This document shows positions 10,050-21,843 of a DNA stretch of 64,000 nt, in pieces. Location of the stretch: the NCBI GenBank assembly GCA_903905455.1, contig CAIVGN010000055.1:1-64000 (forward strand), read 5' to 3'. The position numbers were made by a program, and so were the translations under genes. This DNA is from an uncultured Archangium sp. (GTDB lineage Bacteria > Myxococcota > Myxococcia > Myxococcales > Myxococcaceae). Positions within the stretch are counted from its first letter, which is position 1, and every line of letters begins with the position of its first letter. Under the pieces are notes generated by a model, which ran no database searches, was not told the DNA's origin, and worked only from the letters and a program-made list of their open reading frames with translations.

Positions 10050-13000
10050 ATGCCCTCACGCTTGTTCGTCTCCAAACTGCTCCTCGCGGCGTGCTCTTTG
10101 TTGGTGTTGGCCGGTTGTACGAAGGAGCGCCCGGCGTGGCCCGCGGGACAGGCGGAGGTCGACACCATCAAGGTGAAGGAGGGCGTCGTCACGGTGCCCG
10201 CGGCCCTCACCAACGCGGCGAAGGTGGCGAAGAACCAGCTCTCGTTCCCCGCGTCGATGGCGAGCGACGTGATGGCGAAGTGGCCGACCGGCGCGGTGAT
10301 GGTGGGCCAGCCCGCGGCTGACGTCGAAGGCCGGCGCACCAACCCCTTCGGCTTCCTGCGCAAGGTGACGGGCGTGCGCGTGGAGGGCGACGCAGTCATC
10401 GTCGATACCGAGCCGGCGCTCCTCGAAGATGCGGTGACCGGCGACTACCACCACGAATTCGACGTGGCCTCGACGCAGCCGCTGGTGCTGCCCGACGACA
10501 TCGACCTCTCGGCCTACGACGTGCCGGTGACGCTGACGGAAGGCACGGCCTTCCCCGCGGGGCTGGGGGCGGGCGTGACGCAGCAGCCGCTCGAGGTGCC
10601 CAGCACGGGGCTGACGCTGTTTGGCAAGCAGCGGCAGGGACTGACGGCGGGCGGCCCGACGCTGGCCATCCCGGAGATTCCGATTGCGTTGATGTCCTAC
10701 AACAAGAAGTGGAACACCCCGGAGAACCGGCCCGGCGTGGGCATCAACCTCTCGGGCTCGGTGAAGGTCACGCCGCTGGTGTCGATGAGCCCGCGCCTCA
10801 CCCTCGACGTGAGCGTGGGCATCCGGGGGCTCAGCCACTTCGAATTCTCGGTAGGCGGAGACCTGAAGGTGGGGGCGCGGTACGACATCAACTACGCGGC
10901 GGTGCCGGAGCCGGCGACGAGCCTCGTCGAGGCGGCCAGCATCAACGAACTGCTGGCGCGCTCGCCCATCAAGCTCAACGCGCCGCCGGTGGAGCTGGGG
11001 AAGCCCACGGAGACGGTGGTGGGCAGCATCGGGCCGGTGCCGGTGGTGCAGAAGACGGGCGCGTACCTGGTGTGCGAGCTCAACTTCAAGGGCGCGGTGC
11101 ACGTGAAGGGTGAAGTCAGCGCGCGCATCAGCCCGCGCATGGGCGTGCAGTACGACCGCGACGACGGGTGGACGCCCATCGCGGAGTTTCCGCTCGTGAC
11201 GCCGACGGTGACGGGAGACGTCATCAGCGGTCGAGGGGGCCTGGAGCTCGACTGCGGGGTGGTGGTGCGCGTGGACTTGCTCGTCGCGGACGCGGCCGGG
11301 CCGTACGCGCAAATCCGCCGGGACGTCGTGGCGCACGCCGAGTACGCGGAGGTGTGCCCGGCGCTCTCGACCGACAGGGCGCTGAAGAGCCACGTGGGCG
11401 ACTCGAAGCTGACGATGGGCCTCAAGAGTTACGACGCGCTGCAGGTGGGCGTGGAGCTGGACATCGCCCACGTCATCTCGATTGGGAAGGGGCCGTACGA
11501 CGTGCTGCGGCGCAACTACCCGGCCGATGGCTCGGACCTCATGTCGAAGACGCGGACGGGCGTGCGCGAGGGTAATGGCCGGCTGGGCGTGGGGGTGTGG
11601 TGCGTGGTGCCGTGCGACGACAGGGTGAAGGGCGGCTCCGAGTCGGACGTGGACTGCGGCGGGATCTGCGGCAAGTGCAGCGGCGGGAAGACGTGCGGAG
11701 TGCCGGCGGACTGTCTCTCGGGGGCCTGCGACGCGGACGGCACTTGCGCCGCTTCGCGCTGCGAGGACCACCTGAAGAATGACGAGGAGACGGACATCGA
11801 CTGCGGCGGGCCCACCTGCCGCGCGTGTCCCTACTACCTGCCGGCCGTCGACGGTTCGCTGCGCCCGGTCACGTGCGCGCTCGACCGCGATTGCGAGCTG
11901 GGTTTCTGCAGCGCCGACGCGGTGACGCCGAAGACGTGCACCGTCAACCTCTGCCGCGACGGCAAGGTGAGCGGGAGCGAGCCCTCCATCGACTGCGGCG
12001 CCTCCGACGGGTGCACCAGCCTGTGCAGCACCGGCTCTCGCTGCAACACGGCGGCGGACTGCTCGAGCCACGCGTGCAACATCATGTCGGGACTGTGCGT
12101 GGCCACCACCTGCCTTGACGGCGTCAGGAATGGCGACGAAGGCGACGTGGACTGCGGCGGGAGTTGCCCCACCAAGTGCGCCACCGGCCAGCTGTGTGGC
12201 TACAACCAGCGCGGCGACGCCGACTGCGCCAGCGGGGTGTGCCGCACGCCGCCCTTGAGCAGCGCCGACGGCCTGTGCGTGGCCACGACGTGTGAGGACC
12301 GCCGCGTCGACGGCAACGAGGTGGGCCTGGACTGCGGTGGCTCCTGTGCCGCGCGCTGCCCCATCGGCGAGACGTGCAGCGCCACCCCGGACTGCGTGGC
12401 CGGCGCGCTGTGCAACGTGAAGTCGCGCCGCTGCGCGCTCCCGGGCTGCGACGACAACGTCAAGAATGGCCAGGAATCGAGCGTCGACTGCGGAGGCCCC
12501 TCCTGTCTCAAGTGCGCCATCTCCAAGGCGTGCAACGCCAACGCGGACTGCGTCACCAACACCTGCAGCAACGGCAAGTGCGTGGGCGGCCCCTGTGAGA
12601 ATGGCGTCAAGGACACCGGCGAGGCCGACGTGGACTGCGGCGGCTCCTGCACCTTGCCGTGCGCCACGGGCCTTGCGTGCGCGGTGGCGCGCGACTGCGC
12701 CTCCAACCTCTGCGTGGGCAACACGTGCATCTCCGACGCCTGCCGAGACCGCGTGCGCAACGGCGGTGAGACGGACGCCGACTGCGGCGGCACCACCTGC
12801 ATCGCGCGCTGTACGGCGGGGCAGACGTGCAGCGTCAACGCCGACTGCAGCTCGAGCCTGTGCAACACCACCACGCGCACCTGCGTGGCCGATGCCTGCC
12901 ACGACGGCCTGCTGACGGCGGCCACCGAGTCGGACATCGACTGCGGCGGTTCCTGCGCGACGAAGTGCGAGGTCAACCGGGTGTGCACGGCGGGCGGCGA

Positions 13001-14945
13001 CTGCGTCAGCGGCGTGTGCAACGCCACCACCGGCCGCTGCGTGCCCAACGGGTGCTTCGACGGTGTGAAGAATGGCAGCGAGACGGACCTCGACTGCGGC
13101 GGCAACTGCGACCCGAAGTGCGCCGTCAACAAGACGTGCGCGGCGGGCACCGACTGCCAGAGCGGCGCGTGCATCGCGATGACCAGCACCTGCGCGGCGG
13201 ACCAGTGCAGCGACGGGCGCATCAACGGCAACGAGACGGCGGTGGACTGCGGTGGCCAGTGCGCGACGAAGTGCGCGGTGGGCGGCGGCTGCCTCAGTGG
13301 GGCCGACTGCGCCAACCCGCAGGGCATGGTGGGGCTGCCGGGCTTCTGCAGCGTCTCCACCCGCACCTGCGCGGCGATCTCCTGCGCCGACGGCACGAAG
13401 GACGGCGATGAGACGGGCGTCGACTGCGGCGGCAGCTGCGGCAAGTGCGCGGTGGGCGGCGGTTGCGCTACGGGCACCGACTGCACCAGCACCTTCTGCA
13501 ACGTCACCACCCACGTCTGCGCGGCGGACCAGTGCGGCGACGGCTTGAAGAACGGCACGGAGACGGACATCGACTGCGGCGGCGACACCTGCGGCGGGTG
13601 CGCGGACAACAAGGCCTGCGTCAATCCGTGGGACTGTGGCAGCGGCTACTGCGGCACCACCAACCTCTGCATCCCCGCGTACCCGCGCAGTTGCGCAGAG
13701 CTGTACCTGGTCCAGTACCTGCGCACGGACGGGGTCTACATCATCGATCCCGACGGCCCCCGCACCCGCGTGACGGGCGCCGACAAGGGCGCCAATCCCC
13801 CGATGGCGACGTACTGCAAGATGGCCGACGACCCCAACGGGACGCCGGGCGGGTGGACGCCGGTCTATTACGCCAACACGCAGGGCAACGTGACCGCCCC
13901 GTACCTGACCCTCACGCGCCGCAACAACGCGAGCCCCTGGGATCGCACCTGTGCCGTGGGGAGCACCTGCCCCGGGGCAGGTGACAGTTGCCGTGAAGAC
14001 AATGGCGGCGGCGCGTGCACTACCGGCGCCTGCCACTGTGTCGGCGCCTCGGTGGCTGACCCCTTCGTGGCTCCGGGCCTGCGCGGCAATCCCATCAACT
14101 ACTCGGTGCAGACGGGTGACGCGCGCGACGCGGAGTCGTTCAGCTACCGCCTCGCAAGCTCGAGTACGCCGACCATCGGTTACCGCGGCTACGGCTCGCC
14201 CTCCTCGGTGTCGCAGCTGCGGGTGACCGCGTACCGCAACGGGGTGCAGGTCTTCGACAGCCAGCTCCAGACCACCCTGGGTCCGTCGACGGGCTGGGAC
14301 GGGTATGGGCAGGTCGTGGTGGAGAACCTCAGCGTCAACAACACGTTTGACCTGGTCAGCAACGTGGGCTGGTGCCAGCTCCCGGTCAACGGCTCGGGTC
14401 TCAACCCCGAGGCCATCCCCTGGGGGTGGCCGAACGTGCCGGCGTACCCCTACAACGACGATGTCACGCCCTCGGTCCGCGGCGCCGAGGGCGGGTGCCG
14501 GCGCTTCGGAAAGAACCTCTCGACCAGCGTCGGCCTGGGAGGGGGCCTGCCGACGGGCGTCACGGTCGACTGGGCCCACCGCTGGATCCCCGGGGGCGTC
14601 AACGGTGGCACGGCCGCGGCGACTCCCTACGTGGGGTTGTGGCTCGCCCGCTACGGTACGGACAACTCGTCGTACACGTGGCCGGCGTACCCCATTCCGC
14701 CCAAGTACGGCGCCTTCCGGGGAGAGATGGGATACATCGGCATCTGCAACGGCATGACGTCGACGACCGACGTCACCGCCCGTCGGACGCAGTGCAGCCC
14801 GTACCAGCACCCGTTCTACAACTCCGCCGGCCAGTACCAGCCCATCACGTTCGGCACCGGCGAGCTGACCGGCGACGTCACGAAGGGCTCCAACTTCGGC
14901 AGCTGGCAGCCCGGCATGGTCATCGTCATCTGGGCTCGTTACTGA
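10050..14945 (+). CDS. Giant Cys-rich repeat lipoprotein with fibrinogen-like start of C-terminal domain
   Basis: A 1631-residue lipoprotein: Arg/Lys-poor signal with lipobox VLAGC (residues about 8-23), predicted to be surface or outer-membrane anchored. Residues about 25-515 form a mixed region of unknown fold. Residues about 520-1205 contain 13 tandem repeats of about 45-55 residues, each centred on a D-x-DCGG motif with six or more cysteines (for example ESDVDCGG or ETDIDCGG, then C-x2-C, then DC-x-S-x-x-C). Residues about 1211-1631 start with [19 protein letters not shown] and then YCKM and GGWTP, which resembles the first part of fibrinogen-related domains. The stop overlaps the next ATG (TGATG). 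The ATG lies 112 bases after the previous gene. Adhesion or matrix binding is a plausible role, but that is inference. Confidence 0.85.
11609..13674 (+). repeat. Thirteen tandem 'DxDCGG' coding repeats
   Basis: Within the giant lipoprotein gene, 13 units of roughly 140-190 bases each encode a C-x-D-x-x-x-NG-x-E-(T/S)-x-x-DCGG-x-C core and a following C-x(4-6)-DC-x(3)-C stretch. The DNA copies diverge clearly while the cysteine spacing is kept, so they are old repeats under protein-level selection rather than recent DNA duplication. Unit 3 has DCGA instead of DCGG and units 2 and 4 carry short insertions. Confidence 0.85.
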
Positions 14946-16144
14946 TGCGCGCGCTCCTGGGTTGGACGTCGATGCTGGTGTTGCTGTGCGGCTGTTCGCA
15001 GTTCTCGAAGGACGGCGCGAGCTGCCCTGACACCGCGTGCTCGTCGCACGGGGTGTGCACCTACCAGGACACGTACCCGAGCTGCGCGTGCGCGGAGGGC
15101 TACGACGGCGTGGTGTGCTCGCGCTGCGCCCAGGGGTTTCATCGCGCGACCGACGACAGTTGCGTGGCCGACGAGGTCTGCACGCCGGGCGCGTGTGGTG
15201 CCAACGGCGCCTGCCAGGTGGAAGAGGGCCGCGTGGTGTGCGCGTGCACGCTGGGCTTCACCGGGGCCACCTGCACCGAGTGTCGCGCCGGCTACCACCG
15301 CACGACGGAAGGCAGCTGCGAGCTGGACCTCACCTGCCTGCCGTCGTCGTGTGCCGACGCGGGCGCGTGCAGCGAGGACGCGGGCCGGGTGACGTGTCAG
15401 TGCCCGGCGGACCGCACCGGCGCGTACTGCGAGCAGCGCATCGGCTCCTGCGCCATGGGGGACCCGTGCAGCGCCCATGGCCGCTGCGTCGACACCTCGG
15501 GCCTGGTGCGTTGCGTGTGCCAGCCGGGCTACGGCGGTCCGACCTGCGAGACCTGCTACCCGGGCTACGCGGCCACCGACGCGGGCTGCGTGGCGGGCGA
15601 GGCGTGCACCGCCTCCACCTGTTCCTTCGTAGGCACGTGTACCGCCGACGGAGGCCTCACCGACTGCGCCTGCAACGCCGGCTACACCGGCGGGCACTGC
15701 GAGCGCTGCACCACGGGCTTCCACCGCAGCAGCGACTTCCGCTGCGTGGCCGATGAAGACTGCACGGCCCACAACCGCTGCTCCTCGGGCGGCACCTGCC
15801 GGGTCGAAGCGGGCGCCACCGTGTGCGACTGTCTTCCGGGCTTCGCTGGCGTGACGTGCAGCGAGTGCTACCCGGGATACCACGCGCAAGTGGGCGCCGA
15901 TGGGGGGGCCGACTGTGCGCTGGACACCACCTGCCGCGCCGATACCTGCCGCTTCCACGGGCAGTGCAGCGACGACGCGGGCGTGGCGCAGTGCCAGTGC
16001 GCGACGGGCTTCAGCGGCTCGAATTGCCAGACCAACATCGATGACTGCGTCAACTCGGCCTGCAACGGCCGCCAGTGCATCGACCTCATCAACTCCAATG
16101 TCTGCCTGTGTGACGGCGGCGTTTACGCCCAGGTGTGTCCATGA
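14945..16144 (+). CDS. EGF-like repeat lipoprotein
   Basis: A 399-residue lipoprotein with signal [17 protein letters not shown] (lipobox LCGC). The mature part is almost entirely EGF-like modules: seven units of the pattern C-x(3-5)-C-x(2)-HGxC or NGAC, then C-x-C-x(2)-G-(F/Y)-x-G-x-x-C, each followed by C-x(2)-G-(F/Y)-H-(R/x). The last, shorter module contains NIDDCVNSAC, typical of a calcium-binding EGF start. The gene starts inside the stop of the giant lipoprotein and its own stop overlaps the next ATG (ATGA), so the three genes form one translationally coupled unit. Likely surface exposed with many disulfides. Binding partner unknown. Confidence 0.87.
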   Translation: MRALLGWTSMLVLLCGCSQFSKDGASCPDTACSSHGVCTYQDTYPSCACAEGYDGVVCSRCAQGFHRATDDSCVADEVCTPGACGANGACQVEEGRVVCACTLGFTGATCTECRAGYHRTTEGSCELDLTCLPSSCADAGACSEDAGRVTCQCPADRTGAYCEQRIGSCAMGDPCSAHGRCVDTSGLVRCVCQPGYGGPTCETCYPGYAATDAGCVAGEACTASTCSFVGTCTADGGLTDCACNAGYTGGHCERCTTGFHRSSDFRCVADEDCTAHNRCSSGGTCRVEAGATVCDCLPGFAGVTCSECYPGYHAQVGADGGADCALDTTCRADTCRFHGQCSDDAGVAQCQCATGFSGSNCQTNIDDCVNSACNGRQCIDLINSNVCLCDGGVYAQVCP

Positions 16145-18465
16145 AGCGCGTCGTGAAGTTGGCTGCAGGCGTGGTGGTGTGGCTCGCGTCGTGCGCGGCC
16201 CCACCGAGTTCCACCGCGTGCCCCGTGGGGTACTGCGCGAGCCACGGCGCGTGCACCGAAGTCAACGCCTTGCCCTCGTGTGCCTGTGACGTCGGGTATG
16301 ACGGCCTCAACTGCTCCACCTGCGTCAGCGGCTTTCATCGCATCGGGCTGGCCACCTGCGCTCCCGACGAGACGTGTGAAGCGACGACGTGTGGCGCGCA
16401 TGGCACCTGCAACACGGTGGCTGGCGTGGTGCAGTGCGAGTGTGCGCAGGGCTACGACGGGCCGCGCTGCGACGTCTGCTACGGCGCCTTCCTCGACGTG
16501 AGCGACGCGGGACTCATCGCGAGTGACGCAGGCCTGGTGCGCGCGGGCCCGGCGGAGTGCATCGCCCCGGCGCGCTGCACGGGCGGCACCTGCCCCCTCA
16601 ACTTCACGTGTGATGACAGCACCGGCACCGTCTCGTGCGCGTGCACCTCGGCGGACTGCACCGCGTGCACTCCCACCACCTGCGGAGGCCACGGGACGTG
16701 TGACGAGCCCAACGGTCGCACGCGCTGCACCTGCGCCCCCGGCTACCAGGGCGCGGCGTGTGACACCTGCTACTTCGGGTACCACGACGATGGCGCGGGG
16801 AGCTGCGTGCAGAATGAGCGCTGCACTGCGACGAGCTGCGGCCAGGGTGGCGCGTGCGCCGTCGTCGCCGGGGTCGCCGCGTGCACCTGCGCCGCGGGCT
16901 TCGAGGGCACCCACTGCGAGGCGTGCTCCACGGGGTACCACCGCACCAGCACGGGGAGCTGCGACGTCGACCAGGCGTGCGCTTCGAACTCGTGCCCGAC
17001 GAGCGCGAGCTGCGTCATCTCCGGAGGCGTCGTGACGTGTCCCTGTCGCACGGGCTACGCGGGCTCGGGCTGCGGCCAGTGCTACCCCGGCTTCCACTCC
17101 GTCGACGCGGGCGTGGGCGGTGATTCGTGCCTCTTCGACCAGCACTGCGAGCCCACCAGTTGCGGACGCGGCACCTGCGAGGACGCGACGGGGACGGTGG
17201 TGTGCACCAACTGCCCCACGGGCTTCACCGGCGCGCACTGCGAGGTGAACATCGACGACTGCGGCACGGCGTGCGCGCAGGGCCAGTGCGTCGACCTCGT
17301 CGCCAGCCGCATCTGCCTGTGCTCCGACGGCACCTACGGGCAGAGCTGTTTGCAGGGCCCCGGACTCACCAGCATCGTGCCGGCTTTCGGCCCGCGCGCC
17401 GGCGGCAACAGCATCACCCTCAATGGCACCGGCTTCGTCTCGGGCCTGACGGTCACCATCGGCGGCGTGTCGGCGAGCGTGACGGGCTTCACCGCGACGA
17501 CGGTGACGCTCGTCGTGCCGGCCTCGATGACGCTGGGTCCCACCGAGGTGGTGGTGCGCGCCCCCAACGGGCAGCTCGCGCGCGGTACCTATGCCTACGC
17601 GCCGCAAGCCTTCCTCTACACGGGCGTGATGCAGAGCTTCACCGTTCCGGCGGGCGTCACGTCCCTCAACGTCTCGGTGTGGGGTGCCGCGGGAGGGGCA
17701 GGCGACTCGACGGCGGTGCTGGGTGGTGCGGGTGGCTACAGCACCGGCACGCTCTCCGTCGATGCGGGCCAGGTGCTCTCGATTCTCGTCGGGCAGGGTG
17801 GCGCGCGTTTCGTTTCGGCCGCTGATGCCGGCGCCGGTGCGGGGGGCGGCTTGTCGGGCATCTTCCTCCCCAGTGCTGATGGTGGCGTGTCGCAGGCCGC
17901 GGCGCTGATTCTCGCGGGCGGCGGCGGCGGTGGTGGGCTGTACGCCAGCGTGGCGACGGGCTCGTCCGGCGGCAATGGCGGTGGCCTGTTTGGCGGCGAC
18001 GGCGCGGCCACGGGCACCACCTCCTTCGCGGCGCGAGGCCTGGGTGGCAGCGTGCAGGGCGGCGGCATCGGCGGCTGCTCGACGGCGGGCACCATGGCCC
18101 AGTGCGGCCAGACGGGGCTCGCGCTGCAGGGGGGCGGCGGCGGCGTGGCGATGCTCACCGACGCGCGCGTGGGGGCGACCTTCGGCGGCGGTGGTGGCGT
18201 GGGTCCGTCCTCGACGTCGATGGCCGGTGGCGGAGGTGGCGGCTACTTCGGCGGTGGTGGCGGCGCCAACGAGACGCCCCAGGGCGGCGGTGGCGGCGCT
18301 GGGTTTCTCGCGGCCGGCGTCATCAATGGAGCCACGGCACGCGCCTCGTCGCCCGGTGTCCCGCAGGGGCAGGGCGCGCTGGGCTACGTGAGTGGCGTGG
18401 GCGTCGGAGGCAACGTGACGGCCAGTACCTCGGGCGGCCCGGGACTGGTGCTCATCGGCTGGTGA
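16141..18465 (+). CDS. EGF-like / IPT / glycine-rich domain lipoprotein
   Basis: A 774-residue lipoprotein (signal MKRVVKLAAGVVVWLASC, lipobox LASC). Residues about 25-405 are EGF-like modules closely parallel to the preceding protein, including the same terminal module (NIDDCGTACAQGQCVDL). Residues about 408-485 form an IPT/TIG immunoglobulin-like domain (SIVPAFGPRAGGNSITL, GTGFVSGLTVTIGG). The last 285 residues are a glycine-rich domain (SFTVPAGVTSLNVSVWGAAG, then many GGGGG stretches), like the glycine-rich module of ALK/LTK receptors and of many bacterial secreted proteins. I start at the ATG at 16141 that overlaps the previous stop; an in-frame GTG at 16135 adds only two residues. It appears to be a duplicate of the upstream gene that gained extra C-terminal domains. 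Confidence 0.87.
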   Translation: MKRVVKLAAGVVVWLASCAAPPSSTACPVGYCASHGACTEVNALPSCACDVGYDGLNCSTCVSGFHRIGLATCAPDETCEATTCGAHGTCNTVAGVVQCECAQGYDGPRCDVCYGAFLDVSDAGLIASDAGLVRAGPAECIAPARCTGGTCPLNFTCDDSTGTVSCACTSADCTACTPTTCGGHGTCDEPNGRTRCTCAPGYQGAACDTCYFGYHDDGAGSCVQNERCTATSCGQGGACAVVAGVAACTCAAGFEGTHCEACSTGYHRTSTGSCDVDQACASNSCPTSASCVISGGVVTCPCRTGYAGSGCGQCYPGFHSVDAGVGGDSCLFDQHCEPTSCGRGTCEDATGTVVCTNCPTGFTGAHCEVNIDDCGTACAQGQCVDLVASRICLCSDGTYGQSCLQGPGLTSIVPAFGPRAGGNSITLNGTGFVSGLTVTIGGVSASVTGFTATTVTLVVPASMTLGPTEVVVRAPNGQLARGTYAYAPQAFLYTGVMQSFTVPAGVTSLNVSVWGAAGGAGDSTAVLGGAGGYSTGTLSVDAGQVLSILVGQGGARFVSAADAGAGAGGGLSGIFLPSADGGVSQAAALILAGGGGGGGLYASVATGSSGGNGGGLFGGDGAATGTTSFAARGLGGSVQGGGIGGCSTAGTMAQCGQTGLALQGGGGGVAMLTDARVGATFGGGGGVGPSSTSMAGGGGGGYFGGGGGANETPQGGGGGAGFLAAGVINGATARASSPGVPQGQGALGYVSGVGVGGNVTASTSGGPGLVLIGW

Positions 18466-18471
18466 GCGGAC

Positions 18472-18492
18472 GCCTCGCGTCGGAGGCGAGGC
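18472..18492 (+). terminator. Possible terminator hairpin after the lipoprotein operon
   Basis: A perfect seven-base inverted repeat GCCTCGC / GCGAGGC encloses a seven-base loop, starting six bases after the operon's last stop codon. It is not followed by a run of T, so intrinsic termination is doubtful; it may protect the 3' end of the transcript. Confidence 0.35.
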
Positions 18493-18684
18493 CTTCGTAG
18501 CCGGAGCAGCGGACAGACGCGGGCTGTGCCGCGCGCTCCCCCCCGAAGCCAATCGCACCGTCCCCGCTTCCCCGGGCCGTCGGGCTGAACCCAGGTCGAA
18601 CCGCGTGCCCGTGGGCGAAGCCGCGGAGGCTGTCCCTCGAGGCGGGAGAAGAGCAGGCTCGTCGCGCACCTGAGAGGGGGCCGC

Positions 18685-19872
18685 ATGACGAGTTCAGTCG
18701 CTGGGCTGGAAGTCTCGAACCAGGAGGGGCCTTCGCCCGCATCGCTCCCGATGGAGTTGGTGGAGCGCAAGGGCCTGGGCCACCCCGATTCTCTGTGTGA
18801 CGCGCTGGCCGAGAACCTGAGCCGGTCCCTGTCGCGCGCGTACCTCGAGCGCTTCGGCGTCATCCTTCACCACAACGTGGACAAGGCGCTGCTTCGCGGG
18901 GGCGCGGCGCGGGCGGCGTTCCGGGGCGGGGAAGTCCTCGAGCCCATCGAGATCTACCTCGCGGGCCGCGCCACCCTCGAGGTGAAGGGGGCGCGCATCC
19001 CGGTCGACGAGCTGGCGGTGGAGGGGAGCCGGCAGTGGCTGCGCGAGCACCTCCGCTTCCTCGACGTCGACCGGGACGTGCGGATCATCTCCCTCGTCCG
19101 GCCGACCTCGGCTGACTTGTCCTCGCTCTTCTCGAGGAAGGGCCCGGTGCCCCTGGCCAACGACACCTCGCTGGGCGTGGGCTTCGCGCCGCTCGATGAC
19201 CTGGAGCGCACGGTGCTCGCGGTGGAGCAGCGCCTCAACAGCGCAGAGACGAAGGCGCGCCAGCCGGAGATCGGCGAAGACCTCAAGGTGATGGGCGTGC
19301 GCCGCGGGGACCGCACGTCGTTGACGGTGGCCTGCGCGATGGTGGGCCGCTTCATCGACGACGCGGACGACTACCGGCGCCAGAAGGAGCAGGTGCGCCG
19401 GCTCGCCCTCGAGGCGTGCGCCGGGCCCGTGGAGGTGCACGTGAACACCGCCGACGGCGAGACGGCCGACAGCCTCTACCTCACGGTGACGGGGCTCTCG
19501 GCGGAAGCCGGAGACGATGGCCAGGTGGGGCGCGGGAACCGGGTGAACGGGTTGATCACCCCCTACCGGCCGATGACCCTCGAGGCGGCCGCGGGGAAGA
19601 ACCCCCTCACCCACGTGGGCAAGCTCTACAACCTCGTGGCGCACCGAATCGCGCGGGCGCTGGTGGCCGAGGTGCCGGGCGTGCGCGAGGCCAGCTGCTA
19701 CCTGGTCAGCCGCATCGGCAGTCCCATCACCCAGCCCGAGGTGATGGACGTGAAGGTGCGCCTCGAGGACCCCGCGCAGCTGGCGGCGCTGCGCCCTCTC
19801 ATCAGCGAAGTGGCGCGCGCGAACCTGGCGACGGTGACCACGCTGTGGCGCGAACCACAGCAGGTGTACTGA
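18685..19872 (+). CDS. mat: Archaeal-type S-adenosylmethionine synthetase
   Basis: A 395-residue enzyme that makes AdoMet from methionine and ATP. It belongs to the archaeal MAT family (PF01941), not the bacterial MetK family. Signatures seen are VERKGLGHPDSLCDALAE (archaeal ATP/Met-site motif), HHNVDKALLRGGAA, a PIEIYLAGRAT strand, PLANDTSLGVGFAPL, GEDLKVMGVRRGD, GQVGRGNRVNGLITPYRP and GKNPLTHVGKLYN near residues 295-315. The last two are highly characteristic. The length matches archaeal enzymes (about 400). The ATG is preceded by GAGAGGGGG. It stands alone, with 219 bases upstream that show no recognisable SAM riboswitch. A canonical metK probably exists elsewhere, in which case this would be a second enzyme. 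Horizontal origin is likely long past because codon use matches its neighbours. Confidence 0.93.
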   Translation: MTSSVAGLEVSNQEGPSPASLPMELVERKGLGHPDSLCDALAENLSRSLSRAYLERFGVILHHNVDKALLRGGAARAAFRGGEVLEPIEIYLAGRATLEVKGARIPVDELAVEGSRQWLREHLRFLDVDRDVRIISLVRPTSADLSSLFSRKGPVPLANDTSLGVGFAPLDDLERTVLAVEQRLNSAETKARQPEIGEDLKVMGVRRGDRTSLTVACAMVGRFIDDADDYRRQKEQVRRLALEACAGPVEVHVNTADGETADSLYLTVTGLSAEAGDDGQVGRGNRVNGLITPYRPMTLEAAAGKNPLTHVGKLYNLVAHRIARALVAEVPGVREASCYLVSRIGSPITQPEVMDVKVRLEDPAQLAALRPLISEVARANLATVTTLWREPQQVY

Positions 19873-19887: not shown

Positions 19888-20829
19888 TCAGGGCCCGAAG
19901 TGGCGCGTGGTGCCCAGTTCGCCGCTCAGGTAGCCGAAGAGGTACTCGCGGCCCGAGTCGGTGGCGCGGTCGCTGACGTGCGCGGTCTGCGCGCCGGCCT
20001 CGAGCTTCGCCGAGAGGGTCTTGTCGCGGTTGATGGTGATGTCCGAGCCGCTGCCGGCGTACTTCTCGGCGAGCTCCAGCACGTTCGAGCCGCTCATGCG
20101 CAGGCAGCCGTGCGACGCCGCGTGGCCGAGGTCCGCCTCTTCGGAGGCGGGGATGCCGTGGATGTACTGGGAGTACGCGCCCAGGGAGAGCTTGGTGAGG
20201 CCCATGGGGTTGTCGATGCCCGGGGGAATGGGCTTGGCGTTCGCCGCCCAGCCGCTGTTCGGCGGGTTCCACGGCTTGCGGGTCATCACGTCGGTGACCT
20301 TGAACTTGCTGCCCTGGGTGGGGAACTCGGCGCGGCCCGGCGAGGTGAGGTAGCGCGCGGTGACCTCGTCGTTCTTGCCCAGCACGTAGAGGCGCGTCTT
20401 CTTCGGGTCGGAGATGTCGGCCACGATGTGGAACGCCCCGCGCTTCGAGTCGTCACCGACGGTCTGCGCCTTGAGCCCGGCGATCTGCGTCGCGCAGGCC
20501 TTGTCGAGGGCCTTCAGCGTCGCCGCGTCCAGGGTGCCCGAGGCCACCACGCCAGACTTGGTCTGAAACGCCTTGAGGGCCCCTTCTGTGCCAGGGCCAA
20601 AGTTGCCGTCGATGCCGCCGCGCTTGGCGATGAAGCCCAGCGAGAAGAGCGCCGCCTGGGCCGTCTTCATCGCCTCGCTCTTGGTGCCCTTGGCGATGGC
20701 CGGCAGCGCGCCCGTGGCCACCTTGCTCAGGGTGGGATCGTTCTTGAACGCCGTGCAGCCCAGCGGGCCGGTCGCGCCGGTGGTCGAAGGGGTGACGGGG
20801 CCTACGGGTCGGGTCGTGACGGAGGGCAT
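19888..20829 (-). CDS. L,D-transpeptidase with peptidoglycan-binding domain
   Basis: A 313-residue protein. The N-terminal third holds a peptidoglycan-binding domain 1 (KTAQAALFSLGF then GGIDGNFGPGTEGALKAFQ, about residues 55-100). The C-terminal part is a YkuD-type L,D-transpeptidase with the catalytic block HGIPASEEADLGHAASHGCL, with the His and Cys in SHGCLRM. Such enzymes form 3-3 cross-links or attach proteins to peptidoglycan. No hydrophobic signal peptide is visible at the N-terminus, which is Thr/Pro/Gly-rich (MPSVTTRPVGPVTPSTTG), so export is unexplained; a start further upstream is blocked by lack of a coding-like frame. It lies 48 bases downstream of a related peptidoglycan-binding gene on the same strand. 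Confidence 0.85.
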   Translation of the reverse strand: MPSVTTRPVGPVTPSTTGATGPLGCTAFKNDPTLSKVATGALPAIAKGTKSEAMKTAQAALFSLGFIAKRGGIDGNFGPGTEGALKAFQTKSGVVASGTLDAATLKALDKACATQIAGLKAQTVGDDSKRGAFHIVADISDPKKTRLYVLGKNDEVTARYLTSPGRAEFPTQGSKFKVTDVMTRKPWNPPNSGWAANAKPIPPGIDNPMGLTKLSLGAYSQYIHGIPASEEADLGHAASHGCLRMSGSNVLELAEKYAGSGSDITINRDKTLSAKLEAGAQTAHVSDRATDSGREYLFGYLSGELGTTRHFGP

Positions 20830-20877
20830 GGCGGGGCACTCTAGGGGAGTGCACGGGGCCCGATCAATTCGCCCCCT

Positions 20878-21843
20878 TCAGTAAGGCTGGCCGAAGCCGA
20901 GCACCGAGCTGAGGCTGCGGGTGCGGCGCCAGACGCCTTCCTGGCCCGTCTGCGGGTTGGTGGTGTTGCCCTCGATGGTGCCGATGCTGCCGTCGGCGTT
21001 GACCCTCTCGACGATGCCGATGTGGTCGGCCGTGCGGTCGCCATCCCAATCGAAGAGCACGAGGTCGCCGGGCTGGGGGTTCGACTTGCCCTTCCAGTTG
21101 CCGTCGGCCTTGAGCTGGTTGACGACGCTGGGGCAGTAGGGGTCGTTCATCGAGCCGCCGGCCTGCTGCGTCACCCAGCTGGTGAAGTCGGCGCACCAGG
21201 CCTCGGCGCCGCGGCCGAAGGCGTTGGGGTACTTGAGGGCCTCGCCGCGGTTGTCGCCTGACTCGGTGGTGCCGATCTCGCCGCGGGCGGCGTCGAGCAC
21301 GCGGGCGCGGAGATCGCCGTTGCTCGGAGGGGCCGGGGGCGCGACGACGGCGCCTTCCAGGGCGCGCCAGGTGCCGGCCCCGACCACGCCGTCGGCCTGC
21401 AGGCCCTTGGCGCGCTGAAAGCGGACGACGGCGGCGCGGGTGTTGGCGCCGAAGCTCCCGTCGACCCCGCCGACGTCGAAGCCGTGGCGCACCAGGGCGT
21501 TCTGCAGCTTCTCGACGTCGGCGCCGAAGTCACCGGTGCGCAGCTCGGGCGCGGCGCCCGCGGGGGTCGGGGCCGGGGCGTTCGCGCGCAGGGCCTGCCA
21601 GGTGCTGGGGCCGACCACGCCGTCGACGCCCAGGCCACGCGAGGCCTGGAAGCGCCGGACCGCCGCGGTGGTCATCGGGCCGAAGTCGCCGTCGATGGGG
21701 CCGGTGGGCACGCCCGCGCGCTTGAGGAGGTTCTGCAACTCGGTCACCGAGGCCCCGAAGTCACCGTTCGAGAGCTGCGGCGAGGCGGAAGCGGTGGTGG
21801 CGAGGCGGGGGGTTCCAGTCAGGCGGGCGGCGGAGATGGGCAT
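20878..21843 (-). CDS. CHAP-like amidase with two peptidoglycan-binding domains
   Basis: A 321-residue protein with two peptidoglycan-binding-1 units (about 22-85, with PIDGDFGPMTTAAVRRFQ; about 95-165, with VDGSFGANTRAAVVRFQ) and a C-terminal NlpC/P60-CHAP type domain. The likely catalytic Cys is in EAWCADFTSWVTQQ and the His in DHIGIVERV, with PGDLVLFDWDGD between them. These enzymes cut peptide bonds in peptidoglycan. As with the neighbour, there is no signal peptide (MPISAARLTGTPRLATTASA), so it might be released by lysis, exported by a non-Sec route, or work as an effector. The closely spaced transpeptidase suggests the two act together on the same wall substrate. Confidence 0.83.
   Translation of the reverse strand: MPISAARLTGTPRLATTASASPQLSNGDFGASVTELQNLLKRAGVPTGPIDGDFGPMTTAAVRRFQASRGLGVDGVVGPSTWQALRANAPAPTPAGAAPELRTGDFGADVEKLQNALVRHGFDVGGVDGSFGANTRAAVVRFQRAKGLQADGVVGAGTWRALEGAVVAPPAPPSNGDLRARVLDAARGEIGTTESGDNRGEALKYPNAFGRGAEAWCADFTSWVTQQAGGSMNDPYCPSVVNQLKADGNWKGKSNPQPGDLVLFDWDGDRTADHIGIVERVNADGSIGTIEGNTTNPQTGQEGVWRRTRSLSSVLGFGQPY

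Follow-up and report, generated by a model that had tools for sequence, protein, structure and literature searches.

TraA and TraB of Myxococcus form an outer-membrane exchange receptor (PMC3325183, PMC12045341). The variable domain of TraA decides partner choice, and its Cys-rich region is thought to be the stalk that presents this domain (PMC12045341). Here, we describe three adjacent genes (P1, P2 and P3) from an uncultured Archangium sp., found in a 64,000-nucleotide stretch of DNA that we refer to as the window. The trio resembles TraAB in several respects: these are predicted myxobacterial surface proteins, their genes overlap, and P1 appears to carry a variable globular head on a Cys-rich repeat stalk. 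In two of the trio operons only, the likeness extends to a partner with a beta-barrel, thrombospondin type-3 (TSP3) repeats, and an OmpA domain. In contrast to TraAB, the trio consists of three proteins, has N-terminal lipoprotein anchors rather than MYXO-CTERM, uses other repeats, and lacks PA14. Pfam searches returned no PA14 match in P1–P3, and among NCBIfam models neither the TIGR04201 Cys-rich repeats nor MYXO-CTERM matched P1 or P2, while P3 matched only a TIG-type domain. The trio is thus like TraAB in organisation, but it is not TraAB. We infer that it constitutes one operon for a cell-surface contact assembly in which P1 would present an exchangeable head, a reading towards which we lean slightly. 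The features of the locus are as follows.

10050..14945, + strand: P1, a 1631-aa lipoprotein with base domain, 13-repeat stalk and C-terminal head; lipobox LAGC (Cys23)
10119..11600, + strand: P1 N-terminal base domain (about aa 24-517), without Pfam, NCBIfam or PDB match
11601..13670, + strand: P1 stalk (aa 518-1207), 13 eight-Cys 'DGxKNGxETDxDCGG' repeats
13695..14942, + strand: head at the C-terminus of P1 (about aa 1216-1631), which evolves fast
14943..14947, + strand: P1/P2 stop/start overlap TGATG, read from the sequence
14945..16144, + strand: P2, a lipoprotein (399 aa) built from eight EGF-type units and paralogous along its full length to P3 aa 1-403
16141..16144, + strand: P2/P3 overlap ATGA, read from the sequence and kept in relatives
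16141..18465, + strand: P3, a 774-aa lipoprotein with EGF units, IPT/TIG domain and glycine-rich domain
17359..17580, + strand: P3 IPT/TIG domain (aa 407-480); PF01833 1.6e-10, NF058597 2e-7
17605..18462, + strand: P3 glycine-rich domain of the ALK/LTK GRD type (aa 489-774); PF21722, PF12810

The preliminary description of this DNA had the coordinates, the lengths, both overlaps, the 13 repeats, and the lipoprotein signals exactly right. Gene starts were picked by inspection, which also identified a signal peptide and lipobox in all three proteins (LAGC23 in P1, LCGC17 in P2, and LASC18 in P3). Signal peptide, lipobox, and invariant Cys recur in every orthologue with an intact start. Judged by their sequences, P1, P2, and P3 are outer-membrane lipoproteins, with this location being a prediction. 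Upstream, an Imm33/DUF2314-type gene stops 112 nt before P1; downstream, an AdoMet synthetase gene (PF01941) starts 219 nt after P3. This spacing suggests that the operon in the window is probably the trio alone. A hairpin 3′ of P3 (~18466-18498) lacks a T run and has a weak shuffle z (-1.2), and we claim no terminator there. A check for plasmid origin found no match to P3 in PLSDB. The AdoMet synthetase directly downstream (window 18685-19872) belongs to PF01941, a family generally taken to be of the archaeal type. Beyond it, on the minus strand (19888-21843), two neighbouring genes encode an L,D-transpeptidase (YkuD) and a CHAP amidase, both of them peptidoglycan-binding enzymes.

P1 contains 122 cysteines, mostly within the repeat stretch, where each unit of ~50 aa holds eight. 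No Pfam or NCBIfam model matches the P1 repeats. The eight-Cys DCGG repeat is widespread across the order and Myxococcota, yet it is without a Pfam or NCBIfam model. The head begins with a DPDG...YC...GGWT pattern, and its match to the bacterial fibrinogen-like GGGWT domain lies below threshold (NF040941; E 1.9e-4, 21.4 bits, curated cut-off 30); two of six P1 head members match this model weakly. The first ~57 residues of the head are probably fibrinogen-like on the strength of this pattern, while the remaining 350 residues match nothing. PDB profile searches with the base and with the head gave no match. A low-confidence structure model of the base (pLDDT 55) is all-beta with long strands, and Foldseek found no match to it at E < 0.001 (query TM < 0.15). 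The head model reached a pLDDT of 32.

P2 is made up almost entirely of eight EGF-type units, five with 8 cysteines and three with 6. P2 matches the Pfam EGF model PF00008 (3.3e-16; 59.6 bits, cut-off 21.5), and P3 matches PF00053 (24.7 bits, cut-off 21), so that both proteins belong to the EGF-like families. Similarly, residues 409-480 of P3 are an IPT/TIG domain (PF01833; 41.3 bits, cut-off 20.9). The C-terminal 285 aa of P3 match the PF12810/PF21722 models: PF21722 (Gly_rich_2) is found in all four P3 orthologues and PF12810 (ALK/LTK) in three of the four, at best with 3e-6. Searched alone, the glycine-rich domain of the window's P3 scores 26.0 bits against PF21722 (cut-off 24.3) but does not match PF12810 even with an E limit of 1. 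ALK chains in the PDB align over ~235 residues, at E 5e-4 with the whole-P3 profile and ~0.04 with the domain alone; given these weak values, kinship of the P3 glycine-rich end with the ALK/LTK domain is likely, but not strong. Unlike ALK/LTK, P3 is a bacterial lipoprotein with no kinase, and its neighbouring domains are ordered differently.

We find that P2 aligns over its whole length with residues 1-403 of P3 at ~40% identity, while P2 orthologues are 53-64% identical to one another. This difference indicates that the duplication is older than the species divergence. All P3 copies cluster together, separately from those of P2. Duplicated pairs kept side by side are a common origin of hetero-oligomers, as may be the case for P2 and P3.

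P1 has diverged unevenly. Among seven P1 copies, mean pairwise identity is 61% in the stalk (range 55-74%), 39% in the base, and 34% in the head (range 26-51%), the last with 16% gaps. The parts also differ in their history. In the base tree, the genome G006 pairs with G030, and the window pairs with G018, while in the head tree G006 pairs with G018; the base and head data each reject the grouping favoured by the other (AU p 1e-4 and 8e-5). This conflict suggests that segments of P1 have probably been swapped among lineages. G006 and G018, paired by the head, are also the two genomes whose operons carry an OmpA gene.

Independent support for the exchange of parts comes from distant proteins of Myxococcus-type genomes (L094, L095, L096, and L098). 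These resemble P1 in having DCGG repeats, a single C-terminal head, and a weak match to the P1 base that always falls in the same segments (columns 24-146 and 228-466). They differ from P1 in being stand-alone genes of ~1000-1100 aa, without P2 or P3, and in their heads: a GON domain (PF08685) in L095 and L096, and an unrelated Cys-containing domain in L094 and L098. The C-termini of L094 and L098 also contain a repeated-looking motif, 'CGEDEVAVGIHGRAGEWLDALGMRC', and that of L098 has no Pfam match. With a well-conserved stalk and a tip that changes fast and can be exchanged, P1 would look like a receptor or adhesin, as TraA does, and it is this combination that favours a surface contact assembly. 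Alternatively, the fast change of the head could reflect relaxed constraint instead of recognition.

We searched 145 genomes of the order with the P1 base (A1), the P1 head (A2), and P2 (A3, E < 1e-40). Full-length matches to the three queries occur in an identical set of five genomes: the window's genome, G006, G018, G030, and G143. The preliminary description had proposed comparing gene order among relatives, and this comparison finds P1, P2, and P3 side by side, in the same order, in all six operon copies of the five genomes. The sixth copy is a second complete, paralogous operon in the window's genome (contig C72; about 43-54% identity). It groups with the G143 copy, which suggests two old operon lineages. 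The carriers are draft metagenome-assembled genomes (MAGs): the P1 start of G030 and the P3 ends of G006 and G143 are cut at contig ends, P1 of G018 is split over two contigs, and P2 of G143 has a frame break. A P2 scan of 84,980 species returned four named carriers, all uncultured Myxococcota MAGs (CAIWFK010000522, JAACJQ010000385, JALHOS010000108, and JALOQF010000382, with the content of G018, G030, G006, and G143, respectively), and one contig-end chimera. In the chimera (L128 4756-4843; JAPLCS010000386, a Fimbriimonadales MAG from Lake Pavin), the last ~88 bases are identical to the window's P2 DNA, while the contig otherwise holds an aspartyl-tRNA-synthetase-like gene of another phylum. 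This assembly error hints that the window's organism was present in the same sample. A literature search with limited terms found no account of such EGF/Cys-rich operons.

Translational coupling follows from overlapping genes, and the preliminary description had read the stop/start overlaps in this way. At the 3′ boundary of P2 an overlap is kept in six of six operons, either ATGA to P3 (the window, C72, G030, and G143) or GTGA to an inserted OmpA gene. The overlap between P1 and P2 is less general: it is seen in three operons, those of the window, C72, and G143 (for C72 and G143, when the first of two candidate starts is used), and the other three have 30-51 nt between the genes.

The main alternative is that the trio encodes three surface or matrix lipoproteins that are co-regulated in one operon but share no complex, each acting independently. 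Gene overlaps are common in compact GC-rich genomes, and P1 homologues in other genera are single genes. Furthermore, G006 has a second P1 gene that nothing like P2 or P3 follows (two contig ends, C419 and C244, taken as one gene by an unproven join). Against independence, all five P2-bearing genomes have P1 and P3 beside P2, and this synteny persists at 34-63% identity. We therefore consider independent action a serious possibility, though a doubtful one. The same evidence bears on the earlier suggestion that the three proteins build one surface complex, and that unlinked carriage in relatives would speak against it. The gene order and the overlaps, conserved across genera, strengthen the idea of a functional unit and of a surface complex, and the trio is adjacent in every operon; the extra P1 of G006 is the exception that weakens it. 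Of six species in the genus of the window, just one carries the trio, which is thus dispensable. The lone P1 copy and this patchy occurrence speak against the unit being obligate.

In the contact assembly that we favour, P1 would be a three-part arm. Its acylated N-terminus and base domain would sit at the membrane, the 13 disulfide-rich repeats would form a stiff stalk, and the distal head, swapped between lineages, would make the specific contact. This order follows from the N-terminal acyl anchor, which would leave the base nearest the membrane and, if the stalk is extended, the head farthest out. P2 and P3 would be a duplicated pair of EGF rods, to which P3 adds the TIG domain and an ALK-type glycine-rich end. 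The gene overlaps would help to produce the three proteins in fixed proportion for a physical, surface-exposed complex, and in some relatives an OmpA/TSP3 protein would tie the assembly to the barrel layer and the cell wall. Its job would be contact: binding to cells, glycans, or matrix as an adhesin, or recognition of neighbours.

Instead of joining cells, the trio might capture prey, polysaccharide, or another ligand and so feed secreted hydrolases. A shared base and stalk on which the heads are interchanged, GON and probable fibrinogen-like domains among them, would suit such a device. However, genes for hydrolases, transporters, or uptake are not conserved in the neighbourhood of the trio, and we regard this explanation as unlikely.

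Two operons, those of G006 and G018, contain a further gene. It is 469 or 415 codons long and sits between P2 and P3, overlapping each of them, with GTGA at the P2 junction and ATGA or TGATG at the P3 junction. Its product has thrombospondin type-3 repeats, an OmpA peptidoglycan-binding domain, and a probable outer-membrane barrel. The gene is missing from four of six operons, including that of the window; for G006 and G018, the preliminary statement that the operon includes no further gene of known function does not hold.

OmpA/TSP3 genes of this kind are numerous, with dozens of matches in each genome. Several in the window's genome (G000) adjoin or lie near genes for Cys-rich DCGG-repeat or similar lipoproteins (L099 6927-11127 on C142; L139 2685-10347 on C158; L140 4664-8948 on C200; L142 1180-10466 on C11), and the Cys-rich neighbours on C158 include a 20-repeat protein of 1412 aa. 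A general linkage between DCGG repeats and OmpA/TSP3 genes was not supported: across nine other genomes, one of ~26 loci (G042 C73) satisfied a preset 5-kb rule, versus ~0.4 expected, and two further loci were just outside it, 5.5-5.7 kb from an OmpA/TSP3 gene.

The best NCBIfam match of the operonic OmpA/TSP3 proteins is TraB (1e-51 to 3e-54). This raises the possibility of a TraAB-like function in myxobacteria without TraAB, namely recognition on contact and, after it, fusion or exchange of outer membrane. The plan common to both systems, with overlapping genes, a Cys-rich stalk bearing a variable head and, in two operons, the barrel-TSP3-OmpA partner, is consistent with this. Moreover, true TraB (above the NF033763 cut-off) is present in 62 of the 145 genomes and absent from all five carriers. 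However, the operonic proteins score only 175-184 bits against a cut-off of 700, with the best stretch confined to TSP3 and OmpA; such proteins abound in every genome, and the window's operon has no OmpA gene. TraB would be missing from all five carriers by chance with a probability of ~0.06, a value confounded by phylogeny since the lineages are related, so that its absence is suggestive at most. Membership of TraAB itself is rejected, given the score far below cut-off, the lack of PA14, TIGR04201, and MYXO-CTERM in the trio, and the absence of true TraB. Fusion or exchange appears very unlikely. A broader proposal, that the trio is a second myxobacterial contact-recognition system, used by uncultured lineages without TraAB and made of three lipoproteins whose heads are exchanged on a shared base and stalk, with an OmpA/TSP3 anchor in some lineages, is also improbable, although less so.

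An open frame of 1584 aa runs antisense to nearly all of P1 (window 10056-14810, minus strand), but its codon-position GC (0.93/0.57/0.61) mirrors that of P1, which marks it, like the other long antisense frames, as a by-product of the GC-rich third positions. The notion that this frame raises, of spurious or wrong frames in GC-rich DNA, is refuted and can be set aside with near certainty: GC3 is 0.88-0.93 in the sense frames, and the three proteins and their gene order are conserved at six loci, in five genomes and at a second locus of the window's genome, which is not chance.

Myxobacteria serve as a model of multicellularity in bacteria, and only a few of their surface recognition proteins are known. 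In the operon, adhesion domains of animal-like kinds are inherited together as a defined set, comprising EGF, TIG, ALK-type glycine-rich, and probable fibrinogen-like domains. The mosaic, quickly diverging head of P1 leads to a specific prediction: that the head would decide the partner or ligand.
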